Below are positions 12,923 through 56,718 of a DNA stretch of 64,000 nucleotides, piece after piece. Positions within the stretch are counted from its first letter, which is position 1; each line of letters begins with the position of its first letter. The stretch comes from Streptomyces fagopyri. Its GTDB lineage: Bacteria; Actinomycetota; Actinomycetes; Streptomycetales; Streptomycetaceae. The position numbers and the translations under genes are program-made. The DNA is taken from positions 7,316,001-7,380,000 of the forward strand of contig NZ_CP045643.1 of the NCBI RefSeq assembly GCF_009498275.1, in the 5' to 3' direction. Under the pieces are notes generated by a model that saw nothing but the letters and a program-made list of their open reading frames with translations, was not told where the DNA came from and made no database searches.

Positions 12923-13828
12923 CTAGTCCGGCCCCATTCTGCCCTGCTCGGTACCGCCCGACTCGGGCGCCCTGACCGGGAGCGGATACGGCGGGGGAGT
13001 ACCACCGAATTCCGGACACACCGCCTGGTGGTCGCACCAGCCGCAGAGTTTGGTGGGACGCGGCCGCCAGTCGCCCGTCTCGGTGGCCTCCCGGATCGCC
13101 TCCCACAGCGCGAGCAGCTTGCGCTCGACCCGCTCCAGATCCGCGATGGCCGGGTCGTACGTCAGCACGTCGCCGCTGCCGAGATAGACGAGCTGGAGAC
13201 GGCGCGGGACGACCTGCTTCAGCCGCCACACCACCAGGGCGTAGAACTTCATCTGGAACAGCGCGCCCTCGGCGTACTCGGGCCGGGGGGCCTTGCCCGT
13301 CTTGTAGTCGACGATCCTGACCTCGCCCGTCGGCGCGACGTCGACGCGGTCGATGATGCCGCGCAGCTTCAGTCCGGAGTCGAGCCGGGCCTCGATGAAC
13401 AGCTCGCGCTCGGCGGGTTCGAGCCGGGTGGGGTCCTCCAGGCTGAACCAGCGCTCCACCAGCCGCTCCGCCTCACCGAGCCAGCGGGCCAACCGCTCGC
13501 CCTCCGGGTCGTCGGCGAACAGCTCCACGACCTCGGGCCGTGTCTCGCGCAGCCGGTCCCACTGGCCCGGGATGAGCGACTTGGCACGCGGGGCCGTCCG
13601 CTCCGCCGCCGGGGCGTCGAAGAGCCGCTCCAGCACCGCGTGCACCAGCGTGCCGCGGGTGGCCGCCTCGCTCGGCTTCTCGGGAAGCTTGTCGATCACC
13701 CGGAACCGGTAGAGCAGCGGGCACTGCATGAAGTCGCCGGCGCGCGAGGGCGACAGCGACGCCGGCGGCACGGCCGTGACAGCCGCGGTCGGCTCGGGCG
13801 GGACGCCGCCCGCGGTGCTGGTCTCCAT
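12923..13828 (-). CDS. RecB-family PD-(D/E)XK nuclease with iron-sulfur-type cysteines
   Basis: A 301-residue stand-alone nuclease of the Cas4/RecB-like group, expected to process DNA ends in repair. The N-terminal SLSPSRAGDFMQCPLLYRFRVIDKLP contains the first Cys of the iron-sulfur cage; the catalytic core is seen in GIIDRVDVAP and EVRIVDYKTGKAP (the Asp and the acidic/Lys pair), and the C-terminal cysteines are in LCGWCDHQAVCPEF. The four cysteines could hold a 4Fe-4S cluster as in AddB and Cas4. The ATG at 13828 lacks a clear ribosome site, in keeping with a promoter whose -10 lies only 8 bases upstream. A similar gene lies near trmI in M. tuberculosis (Rv2119, from memory). Confidence 0.88.
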   Translation of the reverse strand: METSTAGGVPPEPTAAVTAVPPASLSPSRAGDFMQCPLLYRFRVIDKLPEKPSEAATRGTLVHAVLERLFDAPAAERTAPRAKSLIPGQWDRLRETRPEVVELFADDPEGERLARWLGEAERLVERWFSLEDPTRLEPAERELFIEARLDSGLKLRGIIDRVDVAPTGEVRIVDYKTGKAPRPEYAEGALFQMKFYALVVWRLKQVVPRRLQLVYLGSGDVLTYDPAIADLERVERKLLALWEAIREATETGDWRPRPTKLCGWCDHQAVCPEFGGTPPPYPLPVRAPESGGTEQGRMGPD

Positions 13829-13836
13829 GTCCCAAG

Positions 13837-13859
13837 ACCTTACGGCCCGCCACTGACAG
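13837..13859 (-). promoter_or_regulatory. Candidate PafBC (RecA-independent DNA-damage) promoter of the RecB-like nuclease
   Basis: On the minus strand CTGTCAGTGGC (13849-13859), then six bases, then TAAGGT (13837-13842) reproduces the mycobacterial consensus TTGTCAGTGGCTG-N4-TANGNT with few mismatches. The start codon is 8 bases past the -10, implying a leaderless or nearly leaderless mRNA. The same element at identical spacing precedes two other genes in the window. Confidence 0.7.
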
Positions 13860-21688: not shown

Positions 21689-21855
21689 GCGGGGCCGTAC
21701 GGGGCCCTGGGGCCCCGTCGGCGCATCGGGGTGGAAAAAGGCGACGTCCGGGAATCATCGAGGTGACCCCCGGACGTTGTAGCAACTGCGGGGCCGATGT
21801 CGGACCCTGCTTGTAGGGTCTGATCAAGAACGTCGAACCGAGCGGGGTGAGGGTT

Positions 21856-30147: not shown

Positions 30148-31125
30148 ATGGCCATTGCCAAGGCCGAGCGGCTGATGAACCTGGCGCTGTGTCTGCTCGG
30201 GACACGGCGGCCGCTCAGCAAGCGCGAACTGCGCGATTCCATCGAGGCCTATGTGGAGGCGTTCAGGCCGGGCAGGGGAGCGGCCTCGTCCGACGATTCC
30301 TTCAACCGGATGTTCGAGCGCGACAAGGACGACCTGCGCGAGCTCGGCCTGGTCATCGAGACCGTGGAGAACCTGGACGGCGAGGTCGGCTACGTCGCCC
30401 GCCGCGACAGCAACCGGCTGCCGCCCATCACCCTCGACGCCGAGGAGGCCGCCGCCCTCGGCCTCGCCGCCAAGGTCTGGCAGCAGGCGCGGCTGGCCGG
30501 CGCGGCGAGCGGCGCGCTGCAGAAGCTGCGCGCCGCGGGCCTGCCCGAGGACGTGGACCCCTACGAGGCCCATGGCGCCCTGGAGCCGCACATCCCCGTG
30601 CACGAGGCGGCCTTCGAACCGCTGATGCTGGCGTGCCGCGACCGTCGCCCGGTCGTCTTCGACTACCGCAAGGCCACCGCCGCGCGCCCCGAGACCCGGC
30701 AGGTCGAGCCCTGGGCCCTGGAGTGCTGGCGCGGCCACTGGTACCTGGCGGGCTGGGACCGTGACCGCGGGGCCGAGCGCGTCTTCCGGCTCTCGCGGAT
30801 CACCGGCAAGGTCCGCGCCCGGGCCGGCCGGTACACGGCCGAGGTGCCCGACGTCGTCACCGTGCGGGAGACGGTCGCCGGGTGGGCGGGCGAGATCGCA
30901 GACCGCTCCGCGCGGATCCGGCTGCGCACCGGCTCCGGATACCCGCTGCGGGCGAAGGCCGTCTCGGTCCGGGAACGGGGAGACGGCTGGGACGAGCTGG
31001 AGATCCCGTACGGGCACGGTCTGGACGCGTGGCTCGTCGAGTTCGGGCCCGACGTCGTCGTCCTGGAACCCGCCGAACTGCGGGCCGACGTGGTGGACCG
31101 GCTGCGCGCCGTGGCCAAGGGCTGA
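30148..31125 (+). CDS. pafB: PafB, WYL-domain transcription factor subunit
   Basis: With PafC it forms the activator of the LexA/RecA-independent DNA-damage response in mycobacteria; despite the name it is not needed for pupylation. The 325 residues contain an N-terminal winged helix (MAIAKAERLMNLALCLLGTR to LRELGLVIETV), the WYL domain around RHWYLAGWD-like RGHWYLAGWDRDRGAERVFRLSRITG and a C-terminal extension. The ATG at 30148 follows AGGGAAGG. pafC starts 16 bp after its stop. Candidate target promoters of PafBC are present upstream of three genes in this window. Confidence 0.95.
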   Translation: MAIAKAERLMNLALCLLGTRRPLSKRELRDSIEAYVEAFRPGRGAASSDDSFNRMFERDKDDLRELGLVIETVENLDGEVGYVARRDSNRLPPITLDAEEAAALGLAAKVWQQARLAGAASGALQKLRAAGLPEDVDPYEAHGALEPHIPVHEAAFEPLMLACRDRRPVVFDYRKATAARPETRQVEPWALECWRGHWYLAGWDRDRGAERVFRLSRITGKVRARAGRYTAEVPDVVTVRETVAGWAGEIADRSARIRLRTGSGYPLRAKAVSVRERGDGWDELEIPYGHGLDAWLVEFGPDVVVLEPAELRADVVDRLRAVAKG

Positions 31126-31141: not shown

Positions 31142-32176
31142 GTGGCAGGAAAACCGGCCAGGCCCACGAACGCGATCGACCAGACCCGGCGGATGCTCTC
31201 CCTGGTGACCTATCTGCGCGAGCGCCCCGGCGCGCGCGTCGGTGACGTCGCCCGGGCGTTCGGGATCACCGAGGACGAGCTGATCTCCGACCTCGACGTG
31301 CTGCCGCTGTGCGGGACGAGCTTCCGCGGCGGCGACCTGCTCGACATCGACACCGACGGCGACCGTATCTGGTGGCACAACCCGGCCGCCCTGGCGGCAG
31401 AGGCGGCCGCGCCGCTCCGTATCGCCGCCGACGAGGCGACCGCGCTGCTGGTGGCCGCCCGCGCGGTCTCCACGCTGCCCGGACTGCGCGAGGGTGACCG
31501 GCAGGCGCTGCTGCGCGCCACCGCCAAGGTGGAGGCCGCCTCGGGAGAGGCGGCGGGCGCCAGCTCCCGGCTCTCGGTGACCTTCGAGTCCGAGGGCGGG
31601 GTCTTCGCGGACGTCGACCGGGCGATCTCCGAGCGGCGCCGGCTGTGGATCCGCTACTACTCGCCCTCGCGCGACGAGCTCACCGAACGCGAGATCGACC
31701 CGATCCGGCTGGTCAGCGTCGGCCACACCTATGTGGAGGCCTGGTGCCGCCGCTCCGAGGCGCGCCGCACCTTCCGGCTCGACCGGGTCGCCGAGATCCG
31801 CATCCTCGACGAGCCGTCCGCGCCCCCGGAGGTCGAGCTGCGGGACCTGTCCGAGGGGCTGGTGCAGCCCGCCGCCGAGGATCCCGAGGTGGTGGTCGAG
31901 GTCGGACCGGGCGGGCGCTGGGTCGCGGAGTACTACCCCCACGACAGCGCGGATGAACTGCCGGACGGCGGGCTGCGTATCACTCTGCGGACCCCCGACC
32001 CCGCGTCGCTGCGGCGGCTGGCTCTGCGCCTCGGCCGTGACGGCCGGATCGTGTCGCCGCCGGAGCTGGCCGACAGCGCGCGACAGGCGGCCCGTGAGGC
32101 CCTGGCGGCCTACGACGGGCTCGACGGCGAGGGAGTCCAGGACCGACCGTACGACAGGCAGGAGCAGGGGCTTTGA
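31142..32176 (+). CDS. pafC: PafC, WYL-domain transcription factor subunit
   Basis: Partner of PafB, with the same winged-helix (MLSLVTYLRERPGARVGDVARAFGITEDEL) plus WYL (IRLVSVGHTYVEAWCRRSEARRTFRLDRVAEI) plus C-terminal layout; here the WYL triplet is diverged, as is common in PafC. It has 344 residues. The GTG at 31142 follows AGGAAA. The stop overlaps the TTG start of the next small gene by 4 bp, so all three are an operon. Confidence 0.94.
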   Translation: MAGKPARPTNAIDQTRRMLSLVTYLRERPGARVGDVARAFGITEDELISDLDVLPLCGTSFRGGDLLDIDTDGDRIWWHNPAALAAEAAAPLRIAADEATALLVAARAVSTLPGLREGDRQALLRATAKVEAASGEAAGASSRLSVTFESEGGVFADVDRAISERRRLWIRYYSPSRDELTEREIDPIRLVSVGHTYVEAWCRRSEARRTFRLDRVAEIRILDEPSAPPEVELRDLSEGLVQPAAEDPEVVVEVGPGGRWVAEYYPHDSADELPDGGLRITLRTPDPASLRRLALRLGRDGRIVSPPELADSARQAAREALAAYDGLDGEGVQDRPYDRQEQGL

Positions 32177-32754: not shown

Positions 32755-33010
32755 CCTCGCGGGGCTCCCGGTAAGAGTTCGGTCCAGGGTTGCGCAATGC
32801 GTCATTCGAGCCTGTCGACTTGCCAGTGCGGACAGGTACGCTTCTGATCGCGGCCCGAAGAACGAGGCGCGGGCCGCGATCGGGAGTACGCACAGGGATT
32901 GCCTCGCGTTCATCCCTGAGCGTTACGATCGCTGTCACGACGACCGGACACTTGTCCGACCGATCGGGCAGTACCCCGCCCCTGCAGCCTCGGTGAGAAG
33001 GTAAAGACTT

Positions 33011-34324: not shown

Positions 34325-35215
34325 GTGACCAGCGAGATCACCCTCTTCGTCAACCCCACCGCAGGACGCGGCCGGGGCGCCCGCGCGGCGCAGCCGGCCG
34401 CTTCCGCCCTGCGGGCGGCGGGATTCTCCGTGCGGACGGTTCTCGGCGAGAACGCCGCCGACGCCCTGACCCGCGCGCGCGACGCGGTCGAGGGCGGAAC
34501 GGGAGCCCTGATAGCCGTCGGCGGCGACGGCATGGCGAACCTCGCCCTGCAGGCCGTCGCCGGGACCCGCACCCCGCTCGGCCTGGTCGCCGTCGGCACC
34601 GGCAACGACTTCGCCCGCGCCCTGGGCCTGCCCATACGCGATCCGGCGGCCGCGGGACGGCAGATCGCCGAATCCCTCAAGGGCTCCCGGCTCCGGGACG
34701 TCGACCTGGGCCAGGTGAACGGCACCTGGTTCGGCACCGTCCTCGCCTCCGGCTTCGACTCCCGGGTCAACGACCGCGGCAACCGCATGCGCCGGCCCTC
34801 CGGACGCGTCAAGTACGACCTGGCGATGCTCGCCGAACTGGCGGCCTTCCGGCCGGTCCGCTACCGGATGACCCTGGACGACGGCGAGACCCGCGAGATC
34901 GAGGCGACCCTCGTCGCGGTCGGCAACGGCTCGTCGTACGGCGGCGGCATGAAGATCTGCGCGGGCGCGGACCTCGGCGACGGACTGTTCGACATCACCG
35001 TCGTCGGGCCCTGCACCCGCAGGACGCTGCTCAGGGTCTTCCCGAAGGTGTACCGGGGCACCCACCTCTCCCATCCCGTGGTGAGCGTGCATCGGGCGGC
35101 CCGCGTCGAGCTCGTCGCCGACGGTCTGACCGGGTACGCGGACGGGGAGCCGCTGGGGCCGCTGCCGCTCACCGCGCGCTGCGTGCCGGGTGCGGTACGG
35201 GTGGCCATTCCCTGA
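34325..35215 (+). CDS. Diacylglycerol/sphingosine-kinase-like lipid kinase
   Basis: A 296-residue soluble kinase of the DgkB/YegS family that phosphorylates diacylglycerol-type lipids. N-terminal NPTAGRGRGA binds phosphate, GGDGMANLALQAV is the GGDG nucleotide loop, and GTGNDFARALGLP completes the site; the C-terminal beta-sandwich lid holds VGNGSSYGGGMKICAGADLGDGLFD, with the Asp/Gly pattern of the second motif. The GTG at 34325 lies 31 bp after tatC, so it likely belongs to the tat operon transcript. The next gene carries its own promoter. Confidence 0.9.
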   Translation: MTSEITLFVNPTAGRGRGARAAQPAASALRAAGFSVRTVLGENAADALTRARDAVEGGTGALIAVGGDGMANLALQAVAGTRTPLGLVAVGTGNDFARALGLPIRDPAAAGRQIAESLKGSRLRDVDLGQVNGTWFGTVLASGFDSRVNDRGNRMRRPSGRVKYDLAMLAELAAFRPVRYRMTLDDGETREIEATLVAVGNGSSYGGGMKICAGADLGDGLFDITVVGPCTRRTLLRVFPKVYRGTHLSHPVVSVHRAARVELVADGLTGYADGEPLGPLPLTARCVPGAVRVAIP

Positions 35216-35268
35216 GCTGCGGGGATCCGGGGTTTCACCGGCAACGGATCCGGATATTGATCGTCCTG

Positions 35269-35291
35269 TTGTCAGTGGCTGCCGGTAGTCT
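35269..35291 (+). promoter_or_regulatory. Candidate PafBC (RecA-independent DNA-damage) promoter of the Ski2-like helicase
   Basis: TTGTCAGTGGCTG, four bases, TAGTCT. The first 13 bases equal the mycobacterial RecA-NDp consensus exactly, and the -10 fits TANGNT at all but one defined position. The start codon is 10 bases further on, so the leader would be only a few nucleotides. This is the best of the three sites in the window. Confidence 0.8.
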
Positions 35292-35301
35292 CGAAGGCAC
35301 G

Positions 35302-38118
35302 ATGACAGAGGACCTCTCACCGGCCGAGCGGTACGCGGCAGCACGGAAGCGCGCTGTCGAGCAGGCCACCGCGCTCGCCTCCTTCCGCGAGATGTACGAC
35401 TTCGGCCTCGACCCCTTCCAGATCGAGGCCTGCAAGGCGCTCGAGGCGGGCAAGGGTGTGCTCGTGGCCGCGCCCACCGGCTCGGGCAAGACGATCGTCG
35501 GCGAGTTCGCCGTCCACCTGGCCCTCCAGCAGGGCAAGAAGTGCTTCTACACGACGCCGATCAAGGCGCTGTCGAACCAGAAGTACGCCGACCTCTCCCG
35601 CCGTTACGGCGCGGACAAGGTCGGCCTCCTCACCGGGGACAACAGCGTCAACTCCGACGCCCCGGTGGTCGTCATGACCACCGAGGTGCTGCGCAACATG
35701 CTGTACGCGGGTTCGCAGACCCTTCTCGGCCTCGGCCATGTGGTCATGGACGAGGTGCACTACCTCTCCGACCGCTTCCGCGGCGCCGTGTGGGAGGAAG
35801 TGATCATCCACCTTCCCGCCTCGGTCACCCTCGTGTCGCTCTCGGCGACCGTCTCGAACGCCGAGGAGTTCGGGGACTGGCTGGACACCGTGCGCGGCGA
35901 CACCGAGGTGATCGTCTCCGAGCACCGTCCGGTGCCGCTGTTCCAGCACGTGCTCGCCGGACGCCGGATGTACGACCTCTTCGAGGAGGGCGAGGGCCAG
36001 AAGAAGGCGGTCAACCCCGACCTCACGCGCCTGGCCCGCATGGAGGCGAGCCGTCCGTCGTACCAGGACCGCAAGCGCGGGCGAGCCATGCGCGAGGCCG
36101 ACCGGGAGCGCGAGCGCCGGCAGCGCTCGCGGATCTGGACGCCGGGCCGCCCCGAGGTCATCGAACGGCTCGACGCCGAAGGCCTGTTGCCCGCCATCAC
36201 CTTCATCTTCAGCCGCGCCGCCTGCGAGGCCGCCGTCCAGCAGTGCCTGTACGCGGGCCTGCGGCTCAACGACGAAGAGGCGCGGGTGAAGGTGCGCGAG
36301 ATCGTCGAGAGGCGCACGGACTCCATCCCGCCGGAGGACCTGCACGTCCTCGGGTACTACGAGTGGCTGGAGGGCCTGGAGCGGGGCATCGCGGCCCACC
36401 ACGCCGGCATGCTGCCCACGTTCAAGGAGGTCGTCGAGGAGCTTTTCGTACGCGGCCTGGTGAAGGCCGTGTTCGCCACCGAGACCCTCGCGCTCGGTAT
36501 CAACATGCCCGCCCGCTCGGTGGTGCTGGAGAAGCTAGTCAAGTGGAACGGCGAACAGCACGCCGACATCACCCCCGGTGAGTACACCCAGCTGACCGGC
36601 CGGGCGGGGCGCCGCGGCATCGACGTCGAGGGCCACGCCGTCGTGCTGTGGCAGCGCGGCTTCAGCCCCGACCACCTGGCGGGACTCGCGGGCACCCGCA
36701 CCTACCCGCTGCGCTCCAGCTTCAAGCCGTCGTACAACATGGCGGTGAACCTGGTCGAGCAGTTCGGACGGCACCGTTCGCGCGAACTCCTGGAGACCTC
36801 CTTCGCGCAGTTCCAGGCCGACAAGTCGGTCGTCGGGATCTCCCGGCAGGTGCAGCGCAACGAGGAGGGACTCGAGGGTTACAAGGAGTCCATGACCTGC
36901 CACCTCGGGGACTTCGAGGAGTACGCGGGGCTGCGCCGGGAGCTCAAGGACCGCGAGACCGAGCTCGCCAAACAGGGCGTGGCGCAGCGTCGCGTCGAGG
37001 CGGCGGTCGCGCTGGAGAAGCTCAAGCCGGGTGACATCATCCATGTCCCGACCGGCAAGTTCGCCGGTCTGGCGCTGGTGCTGGACCCCGGTCTGCCCGC
37101 GGGCCGGTCCAACGGCCACCGAGGCTTCGAGCAGCACGACGGTCCGCGCCCGCTGGTGCTCACCGCCGAGCGTCAGGTCAAGCGGCTGGCCTCGATGGAC
37201 TTCCCGGTGCCGGTGGAGGCGCTGGAGCGGATGCGTATCCCGAAGTCCTTCAACCCGCGTTCCCCGCAGTCCCGTCGCGACCTCGCGTCCGCCCTGCGCA
37301 CCAAGGCCGGGCACATCGTCCCCGACCGGCTGCGCAAGAGGCGCGCCGAGGCGGCCGACGACCGCGAGATCGCCCGGCTGCGCACGGCGATCCGAGCCCA
37401 CCCCTGCCACGGGTGCAACGACCGTGAGGACCACGCCCGTTGGGCCGAGCGCTACCACCGGCTGCTGCGTGACACCTCGCAGCTGGAGCGTCGCATCGAG
37501 GGCCGGACGAACACCATCGCCCGCACCTTCGACCGTATCGTCGCCCTGCTCACCGAGCTGGACTACCTGCGCGGCGACGAGGCCACCGAACACGGCAGAC
37601 GCCTGGCCCGGCTGTACGGCGAACTCGACCTGCTGGCCAGCGAATGCCTGCGGGCCGGTGTCTGGGAGGGCCTCGATCCGGCGGAACTCGCCGCCTGCGT
37701 CTCGGCGTTGGTCTACGAGTCGAGGGTCGGCGACGACGCGATGGCGCCGAAGCTGCCCTCCGGCAAGGCCAAGGCCGCGCTGGGCGAGATGGTCCGCATC
37801 TGGGGGCGTCTGGACGCTCTGGAGGAGGACTTCCGGATCACCCAGTCCGAGGGCGTGGGCCAGCGCGAGCCGGATCTCGGTTTCGCCTGGGCGGCGCACG
37901 AGTGGGCTTCCGGCAAGGGTCTCGACGAGGTGCTGCGCGAGGCGGAGATGCCGGCCGGCGACTTCGTCCGGTGGTGCAAGCAGGTCATCGACGTACTGGG
38001 CCAGATCTCGGCCGCCGCGCCGGTCTCCGGTGGAGAGAGCTCGACGGTGGCGAAGAACGCCCGCAAGGCGGTCGACGGGCTGCTGCGCGGGGTGGTCGCC
38101 TACTCGTCGGTGGGCTGA
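35302..38118 (+). CDS. helY: Ski2/Mtr4-like DEVH-box helicase (HelY type)
   Basis: Superfamily 2 ATP-dependent helicase of 938 residues, expected to unwind RNA or RNA/DNA. Motifs in order: Walker A AAPTGSGKT near residue 60, TTPIKALSNQK, MDEVHYLSDR, SLSATVSN, then TFIFSRAAC, ATETLALGINMPARSVV and QLTGRAGRRGIDVEGH (motif VI), followed by the long C-terminal DSH/Ski2-type domain with a CHGCNDREDH cysteine-His insertion. The ATG at 35302 has only a weak AAGG; a short leader explains this. An in-frame ATT-preceded extension to 35257 would swallow the promoter motif. HelY is also downstream of tatC in M. tuberculosis. Confidence 0.94.
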   Translation: MTEDLSPAERYAAARKRAVEQATALASFREMYDFGLDPFQIEACKALEAGKGVLVAAPTGSGKTIVGEFAVHLALQQGKKCFYTTPIKALSNQKYADLSRRYGADKVGLLTGDNSVNSDAPVVVMTTEVLRNMLYAGSQTLLGLGHVVMDEVHYLSDRFRGAVWEEVIIHLPASVTLVSLSATVSNAEEFGDWLDTVRGDTEVIVSEHRPVPLFQHVLAGRRMYDLFEEGEGQKKAVNPDLTRLARMEASRPSYQDRKRGRAMREADRERERRQRSRIWTPGRPEVIERLDAEGLLPAITFIFSRAACEAAVQQCLYAGLRLNDEEARVKVREIVERRTDSIPPEDLHVLGYYEWLEGLERGIAAHHAGMLPTFKEVVEELFVRGLVKAVFATETLALGINMPARSVVLEKLVKWNGEQHADITPGEYTQLTGRAGRRGIDVEGHAVVLWQRGFSPDHLAGLAGTRTYPLRSSFKPSYNMAVNLVEQFGRHRSRELLETSFAQFQADKSVVGISRQVQRNEEGLEGYKESMTCHLGDFEEYAGLRRELKDRETELAKQGVAQRRVEAAVALEKLKPGDIIHVPTGKFAGLALVLDPGLPAGRSNGHRGFEQHDGPRPLVLTAERQVKRLASMDFPVPVEALERMRIPKSFNPRSPQSRRDLASALRTKAGHIVPDRLRKRRAEAADDREIARLRTAIRAHPCHGCNDREDHARWAERYHRLLRDTSQLERRIEGRTNTIARTFDRIVALLTELDYLRGDEATEHGRRLARLYGELDLLASECLRAGVWEGLDPAELAACVSALVYESRVGDDAMAPKLPSGKAKAALGEMVRIWGRLDALEEDFRITQSEGVGQREPDLGFAWAAHEWASGKGLDEVLREAEMPAGDFVRWCKQVIDVLGQISAAAPVSGGESSTVAKNARKAVDGLLRGVVAYSSVG

Positions 38119-55767: not shown

Positions 55768-56688
55768 TCAGCTGCCGAGTGTCGTGAGCAGACGCTGCAG
55801 GGAGCCGCCCAGGCCCCAGCGCGCCGCGAGTGCGTCCAGCGCGGCCGGGTCGCGCGGAGAGTGCGGCAGCGCCGGGTCGACGTCGGGCAGCGGGACGTCA
55901 CCGGCCACCCGTACGACCTCGGGCGCCAGGGCGACGTAGGGTCGGGACTCGTCGAGCCGTCTGCGCTGAGAGGGCGTCAGCCCGGACTTCGGGTCGTCCA
56001 CGGCGGACATGATCCCCGCCAGGTCGCCGAAGGCGTCGAGCAGCTTGGCCGCCGTCTTCTCGCCGATCCCGGGCACCCCCGGAAGGCCGTCGCTCGGATC
56101 GCCGCGCAGCAGCGCCAGGTCCGCGTATCCGGAGCCGTCGACCCCGTACTTCTCGCGCAGCCATGTCTCGTCGGTGAGCTGGAGGGTGCCGACGCCCTTG
56201 AGCGGGTACAGGACGCGCACCCCCCGCTCGTCGTCGACGAGCTGGTAGAGGTCGCGGTCGCCGGTGACGATGTCGACCGGGCCGGTGGCGCGTCCGGCGA
56301 AGGTGCCGATCACGTCGTCCGCCTCGTACCCCTCGACGCCCACGCGCGCGATGCCCAGCGCGTCCAGGACGTCCTCGATGACGGGCACCTGCGGGGAGAG
56401 CGTGTCCGGCACCTCCTCCTGGTCCGGACCGGTCTCGGTCTCCACGGCCACCCGGTGGGCCTTGTACGAGGGGATCAGGTCGACCCGCCACTGCGGGCGC
56501 CAGTCCGCGTCCATGCAGGCCACCAGGTCGTCCGGACGGTGGTCCTTGACCAGGCGGTCGATGAAGTCGAGCAGCCCGCGCACGGCGTTCACGGGCGTGC
56601 CGTCCGGGGCCTTCACGGAGTCGGGGACTCCGAAGTAGGCCCGGAAGTACAGGGAGGCGGTGTCGAGCAGCATCAGGCGTCTGGTCAC
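55768..56688 (-). CDS. 5'-3' exonuclease of the DNA polymerase I N-terminal type
   Basis: Stand-alone flap nuclease of 306 residues. Metal-binding acidic residues are in LMLLDTASLYFRAYFG, ACMDADWRPQWR, GYEADDVIGTFA, VTGDRDLYQLV and LRGDPSDGLPGVPGIGEKTA, the last also giving the helix-three-turn-helix. I place the start at GTG 56688 (VTRRLMLLDT) because the candidate promoter's -10 overlaps the two upstream ATGs at 56697 and 56700, which also lack a ribosome site; ATG 56697 would add three residues. A similar exonuclease is near helY in M. tuberculosis (Rv2090). Likely role: removal of flaps and damaged ends. Confidence 0.92.
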   Translation of the reverse strand: MTRRLMLLDTASLYFRAYFGVPDSVKAPDGTPVNAVRGLLDFIDRLVKDHRPDDLVACMDADWRPQWRVDLIPSYKAHRVAVETETGPDQEEVPDTLSPQVPVIEDVLDALGIARVGVEGYEADDVIGTFAGRATGPVDIVTGDRDLYQLVDDERGVRVLYPLKGVGTLQLTDETWLREKYGVDGSGYADLALLRGDPSDGLPGVPGIGEKTAAKLLDAFGDLAGIMSAVDDPKSGLTPSQRRRLDESRPYVALAPEVVRVAGDVPLPDVDPALPHSPRDPAALDALAARWGLGGSLQRLLTTLGS

Positions 56689-56695
56689 GCCCCGC

Positions 56696-56718
56696 ATCAT
56701 GCCGTACGCCACTGACAG
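56696..56718 (-). promoter_or_regulatory. Candidate PafBC (RecA-independent DNA-damage) promoter of the 5'-3' exonuclease
   Basis: Minus strand: CTGTCAGTGGC (56708-56718), six bases, CATGAT (56696-56701). The first element is identical to that before the RecB-like nuclease and the spacing is identical in all three sites. The -10 departs from TANGNT at its first base. Transcription would start at or next to GTG 56688. Confidence 0.65.

Follow-up and report, generated by a model that had tools for sequence, protein, structure and literature searches.

A conserved PafBC-class promoter site before helY in Streptomyces fagopyri and a predicted WblC-type box on the same -10 element

The helY gene of Streptomyces fagopyri encodes a Ski2-like helicase, and the sequence directly before it resembles the RecA-independent DNA-damage promoters (RecA-NDp) of mycobacteria. 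This raises the question of whether the site is a genuine promoter of that class, which regulator would use it, and how much of the regulation of helY it would explain. The site was analysed within a window of 64,000 nucleotides (positions 7,316,001 to 7,380,000 of contig NZ_CP045643.1, forward strand) and compared with the genomes of relatives. The central features are as follows.

35269..35277, + strand: PafBC-type -26 box TTGTCAGTG, a consensus match, with TGTC conserved at 0.98 or more in 60 genomes
35286..35291, + strand: -10 element TAGTCT, a sequence match, common to both predicted promoter modes
35302..38118, + strand: helY, Ski2-like helicase of 938 aa, with domain matches to DEAD, Helicase_C and DSHCT

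The sequence TTGTCAGTGGCTGCCGGTAGTCT lies at 35269-35291 on the + strand, just where a preliminary description had placed it, and the ATG of helY at 35302 follows 10 bases past the end of the -10 element. The site can be written as TTGTCAGTGGCTG-CCGG-TAGTCT or, alternatively, as TTGTCAGTG-N8-TAGTCT. All fixed positions of the printed RecA-NDp/PafBC consensus, tTGTCRgtg-8nt-TannnT (PMC5656591), are present, from the box through the 8 nt to TANNNT. The earlier claim of a near-perfect match is thus fully justified for the printed consensus, whereas the 13-base form and the TANGNT element in which it had been phrased were found in no source. The extra match at CTG adds little, because the positions past TTGTCRGTGG carry little information across the 23 exact sites of this genome. 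The helY site is the sole zero-mismatch match of TTGTCRGTG-N8-TANNNT in the window; with up to two mismatches the pattern occurs 8 times (1.57 expected), and 100 shuffles all gave fewer than 8. LexA SOS boxes have the form TCGAAC-N4-GTTCGA. The best match to this form in a scan of 35101-35330 reached 8 of 12 fixed positions, so no convincing SOS box was found near helY and a LexA SOS promoter was ruled out there.

The preliminary description had proposed a genome-wide motif search and a comparison within the genus, and both turned out in its favour. The 8.88-Mb genome contains 23 exact sites, many of them before repair genes, against 0 for a reversed-pattern control; when one mismatch to TTGTCAGTGG-N7-TANNNT is allowed, the numbers become 56 and 1. 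Exact sites are present in all 61 sampled genomes of the genus (1498, compared with 6 for the control). Enrichment was also seen for YTGTCRGAGG-N7-TANNNT, a variant of the box that occurs commonly in the genus (115 against 2); some of the 115 are helY sites. Across the phylum an exact site was found in only 61 of 246 genomes, and the enrichment is therefore limited to some families. The motif was found in 148 of 196 genomes of the class, and a PafC match at 1e-20 was absent from 21 of the 196. For 20 of these 21, as listed, there are 14 sites together, with 0-3 in each. Little weight is given to this co-occurrence because many PafC-positive genomes of the class have few or no exact sites. Two genomes of one family (f77), G432 and G414, have 119 and 63 exact matches; in G414 many identical copies of TTGTCGGTGCCCGCCCGTAGGGT stand among the matches listed and look like a repeated element. 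A subclass of the one-mismatch sites was also observed, in which TTGTCAGTGG is followed by CANNNT, often CANNAT, in place of the TANNNT -10 element. One such site (L026) precedes ligA, with ATG at +8.

In its own genome the motif marks a repair regulon, since many of the 23 sites stand before replication and repair genes. NCBIfam and Pfam matches identify recA, uvrB, pcrA/uvrD, a YoaA/DinG-like helicase, dnaX and ruvC, and further a RarA-like ATPase, an Ogt-type methyltransferase, a TIGR02960 sigma factor, ribosomal protein S6 (rpsF) and HelY. Each locus extends 1.5 kb from the site, which truncates long genes, and several matches are below the curated cut-off. We assume that ssb is the operon partner of the S6 gene. 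Other members encode a SWIM protein, DUF2797 and DUF4253 proteins, an HHH_RecD2 protein and an MFS transporter, and the proteins behind L002 and L003 are without family match. An unexpected member is the SUKH-4 immunity-type protein encoded behind the exact site of L015. No clear gene lies downstream of the exact sites of L001, L006 and L016. At L007 the exact, conserved motif (1501-1523) belongs to the 3' end of a coding sequence (LSVADANVLDV), the GTG at +8 is part of the enclosing protein, and constraint on the protein is the likely reason for the conservation of the motif. Exact sites are therefore not all promoters: at least one of the 23 (L007) is intragenic, and four (L001, L006, L007 and L016) are without a convincing gene.

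The promoter occupies the same place in 60 genomes of the genus, with the -10 element ending 10 bases, or in a few cases 8-9, before the ATG of helY. The alignment of these genomes was anchored on GG-TAxxCT, which is present in 60/60. Column conservation is at least 0.98 for TGTC, 0.88 for the following two G and 0.43 for the upstream flank. The exact box is found at helY in 18 of the 60, including S. fagopyri. S. violaceoruber NRRL S-981, a close relative of the laboratory strains S. coelicolor A3(2) and S. lividans, also has it. A core that has been linked to induction by PafBC in M. tuberculosis, TGTC(GG/AG/AC)-N10-TANNNT (PMC8151990), is present at helY in 52/60 genomes of the genus, 13/40 of the rest of the family and 0/30 of other families, against 0 matches in 394,098 background positions. 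Even the core is absent at helY in 8/60 genomes of the genus, and some of its members have a -26 box that has drifted, for example to TGTCAT and TGTCCG forms. A matrix derived from the remaining 55 sites of the own genome gave matches at a corrected p<0.01 in 57/60, 14/40 and 0/30 genomes, respectively; genomes of the genus and family are related, and these conservation counts are not independent. In six genomes of other families (L114, L115, L116, L119, L121 and L122) the protein match began at residues 21-24, and the core and matrix windows therefore extended no more than about 40-50 nt upstream of the actual start. In a 400-nt scan the best match was at most 8/12 in 29 of the 30 genomes of other families; the remaining one (G250) has a near match of 10/12, GCGTCGGTG..., with ATG at +8. 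This was missed by the narrower core and matrix windows because the protein match of that genome began at residue 78. Universal control of helY by PafBC in actinomycetes was ruled out, as the core is found in 0/30 other-family genomes within the window scanned. From this distribution it appears likeliest that the helY box originated, or reached its perfect form, within the family.

Judged by sequence, the stretch 35269-35291 is a real, conserved PafBC-class promoter site that adds helY to a known class as a new member; the class assignment made earlier is backed by the genome-wide enrichment, the repair-gene targets and the conservation at helY. The genes of the putative regulator are close by, and the start of the transcript can be predicted.

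30148..31125, + strand: pafB (WYL and WCX domains), best PDB match 7p5x chain AY, E 3.1e-54
31142..32176, + strand: pafC (HTH_PafC, WYL and WCX domains), best PDB match 7p5x chain AX, E 8.8e-52
35298..35299, + strand: predicted transcript start, 7-8 bp past the -10 element, with the A at 35299 kept in 58/60 genomes

As had been noted before, pafB and pafC are on the same strand, 3.1-5.2 kb before the site. The best solved relatives of both proteins are chains of the PafBC-RNA polymerase complex of M. smegmatis, and the sequence RMFERDK in PafB recurs unchanged in the structure chain aligned to it. The mycobacterial PafBC is switched on by single-stranded DNA; its PafB subunit recognises the -26 motif, and its PafC subunit makes contact with domain 4 of the sigma factor (PMC11804915). 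By analogy, PafBC would likely recruit the housekeeping RNA polymerase at 35269-35291 after DNA damage: it would be activated by single-stranded DNA, PafB would read the -26 box, and PafC would contact sigma domain 4, kept off the -35 DNA. Transcription would begin at 35298-35299. Since the start codon is at +11 from the -10 element and the start is expected 7-8 bp past it, the helY leader would be 3-4 nt long, and this geometry backs the prediction of a nearly leaderless helY mRNA made in the preliminary description.

A further element was found upstream of the -26 box.

35253..35258, + strand: WblC/WhiB7-like A/T-rich box GATATT, 5/6 against GAAAWY by consensus comparison, with an 18-bp spacer
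35262..35267, + strand: -35 position for the WblC mode, CGTCCT, by consensus comparison a poor match to TKGMNN

Promoters of WblC in S. coelicolor consist of GAAAWY, 3 bp, TKGMNN, 16-19 bp and TANNNT, with a less conserved -35 and the transcript start mostly 7-8 bp past the -10 element (PMC7157823). The layout in the window is GATATT-GAT-CGTCCT-N18-TAGTCT, the spacer of 18 bp being within this range, and CGTCCT agrees by eye with 2/4 fixed positions of TKGMNN. Among the 23 exact sites only helY reaches at least 5 of 6 positions of GAAAWY (background 0.0167). A conserved A-tract lies about 13 bases above the -26 box, with A at -30 in 57/60 and at -29 in 52/60 genomes, counted from the -10 element. 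The tract, by a pattern written after seeing the sequences, is present in 51/60 genomes of the genus and in 19/22 anchored relatives from other genera (background 0.003); at least 7 of 12 A+T at its position were found in 53/60 and 16/22, respectively (background 0.026). The best match to the WblC box stands at a spacer other than 18 in 30/60 genomes of the genus. An AT-hook is a feature of WblC/WhiB7. One of the 9 WhiB proteins in the genome is WblC-like and carries such a hook (RPRGRPRK), and its gene, as well as pafB and pafC, is intact. From the gene name and the gene order, the helY of the window is presumably the orthologue of SCO1631. This S. coelicolor helY encodes a ribosome-associated helicase and is activated by WblC, 5.1-fold in RNA-seq (PMC7157823).

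The site resembles the WblC/WhiB7 promoters of S. coelicolor, of which helY is a member there, in its candidate A/T-rich box, its 18-bp spacer and TANNNT, and it differs from them in its weak -35 and in the conserved TGTC within the spacer, which the published consensus lacks. We consider it probable, on comparison with the two consensus sequences, that the helY promoter is a composite in which a PafBC box and a WblC box are set on one -10 element. Under ribosome-targeting antibiotics WblC would occupy the A/T-rich box at 35253-35258 and, with HrdB as in S. coelicolor, act on this -10 element too. Because both adaptors act through sigma domain 4, PafBC and WblC are expected to alternate at helY and would not act together. 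The interpretation in the preliminary description therefore holds for the promoter class, the presence of PafB and PafC and the short-leader geometry, and it overlooked the A/T-rich box of WblC/WhiB7 type. To call helY a DNA-damage gene would describe at most half of its regulation, because SCO1631 is published as activated by WblC.

The published activation of SCO1631 would also fit another explanation, in which the promoter is served by WblC/WhiB7 only, TTGTC is a side effect of the -35 and spacer region, and PafBC has no role. The A-tract in 51/60 genomes of the genus and 19/22 anchored relatives from other genera speaks for this, as does the drift of the -26 box to TGTCAT and TGTCCG in part of the genus. 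However, between -35 and -10 the published WblC consensus specifies nothing conserved, and TGTC has a conservation of 0.98-1.00 there; moreover, the PafBC consensus is perfect in 18/60 genomes, S. fagopyri included, and the same box stands before recA, uvrB and other repair genes. We regard control by WblC without PafBC as unlikely.

It is less likely still that the RecA-NDp box is constitutive or is served by a regulator other than PafBC. ClgR was once proposed in mycobacteria, on the P1 motif of recA in M. smegmatis (cited in PMC5656591), but the motif has since been attributed to PafBC through ChIP, mutants and cryo-EM in mycobacteria (PMC8223512, PMC6789036, PMC11804915), and both PafB and PafC are intact here, with RMFERDK of PafB identical in the structure chain. 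A chance match with no function could draw on the eight loose two-mismatch occurrences in the window. Such an accident is very improbable in view of the 23 sites against 0 in the genome, the position relative to the helY ATG conserved in 60 genomes, and a core with 0 matches in 394,098 background positions. The composite of a PafBC box and a WblC box thus remains the reading that we prefer.

The distance between -10 element and start codon was also informative at other sites. RTG is found exactly at +8 from the -10 element in 10/23 sites of the own genome, compared to a background of 0.032 (P 1e-9), and opens a long reading frame in 8 of these 10, the exceptions being L007 and L019. In the genus it is found at +8 in 491/1498 sites, counted in any frame and with orthologous sites counted repeatedly. 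With a start 7-8 bp past the -10 element, an RTG at +8 would therefore give leaderless messages at such sites, and the fact that one site in three has its start codon at +8 suggests that predicted repair messages are often leaderless. At the recA site (L005) an in-frame GTG is located exactly at +8, 12 codons before a usual-looking ATG at +44, and its GACGTG is kept in many genomes among the matches listed. A RecA with an extended N terminus may thus be made from a leaderless message.

Other candidate sites were found in the window.

13837..13859, - strand: second PafBC-type site, CTGTCAGTG-N8-TAAGGT, with ATG at +9 and one mismatch (motif scan)
12923..13828, - strand: gene of a RecB-like PD-(D/E)XK nuclease behind the 13837 site (domain match)
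56696..56718, - strand: third, weaker candidate site, CTGTCAGTG-N8-CATGAT, with GTG exactly at +8, two mismatches and a CANNNT -10 element
55768..56688, - strand: gene of a 5'-3' exonuclease behind the 56696 site (domain match)

The site at 56696-56718, of the same CANNNT type as that before ligA, fails the core TGTC(GG/AG/AC)-N10-TANNNT. In a recA mutant of M. tuberculosis treated with mitomycin C, the RecB-like exonuclease gene rv2119 and ssb were among the overexpressed genes (PMC8151990). A one-mismatch site, TTGCCAGTG-N8-TACGCT, is located at 32820-32842, about 170 bases before tatA, and is probably non-functional because the changed base falls in the conserved TGTC. A core match, TGTCGG-N10-TAGGGT, was also observed at 21798-21819 on the + strand.

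The RecA-NDp promoter of S. rimosus recA was reportedly described by Ahel in 2002. In S. coelicolor, SCO6735 has a RecA-NDp promoter and shows a 5-fold rise after UV (PMC5087735). RecA-NDp promoters in Streptomyces (recA, SCO6735) are thus already known, and what is new is helY as a member. The site is of the same class and in the same genus as those two; the passages available from the reports on them name recA and SCO6735 and do not mention helY. Compared to the RecA-NDp/PafBC promoters of Mycobacterium, it shares the tTGTCRgtg-8nt-TannnT geometry, the repair-gene targets and the presence of pafBC, and it differs in a box at helY that is found in the genus and in 0/30 sampled genomes of other families (one near match in the wider scan), in the extra A/T-rich box upstream, and in that the use of PafBC is predicted here. 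In the passage of PMC12702967 that bears on it, helY of M. smegmatis is given in a biofilm expression table and not as a PafBC target. Literature searches found neither helY as a RecA-NDp member nor a PafBC/WblC composite, and 'RecA-NDp' and 'helY' were not found together in any paper of the library searched. WhiB7 and PafBC occur together in three papers. Going by titles and the first lines of abstracts, no test of PafBC in Streptomyces was found, and a search with the literal motif gave unrelated papers among the matches listed.

According to the sections available of a 2022 study, an initial search indicated that the M. smegmatis PafBC motif is apparently not conserved in S. venezuelae, and a response independent of RecA and LexA was still to be shown there (PMC9380542). 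The genus counts reported here (61/61 genomes; 1498 sites against 6) conflict with that search and agree with PMC5087735. We argue from these motif matches that the PafBC motif is widely kept in the genus, with candidate targets named. The literature leaves a damage response independent of RecA and LexA in Streptomyces undecided, and the genus counts bear on this question. Whether helY serves as a hub of both responses, its one -10 element read by two competing adaptors of sigma domain 4 (PafBC upon DNA damage, WblC under ribosome-targeting antibiotics), and belongs to a PafBC regulon that spans the genus and would have promoters of leaderless type in up to a third of cases, is a wider proposal to which we give about even chances. 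The gene offers a clean test case, as one -10 element apparently serves both PafBC and WblC, whose action depends on a common region of the sigma factor. It may be speculated that leaderless repair messages could still be translated when ribosomes are disturbed.
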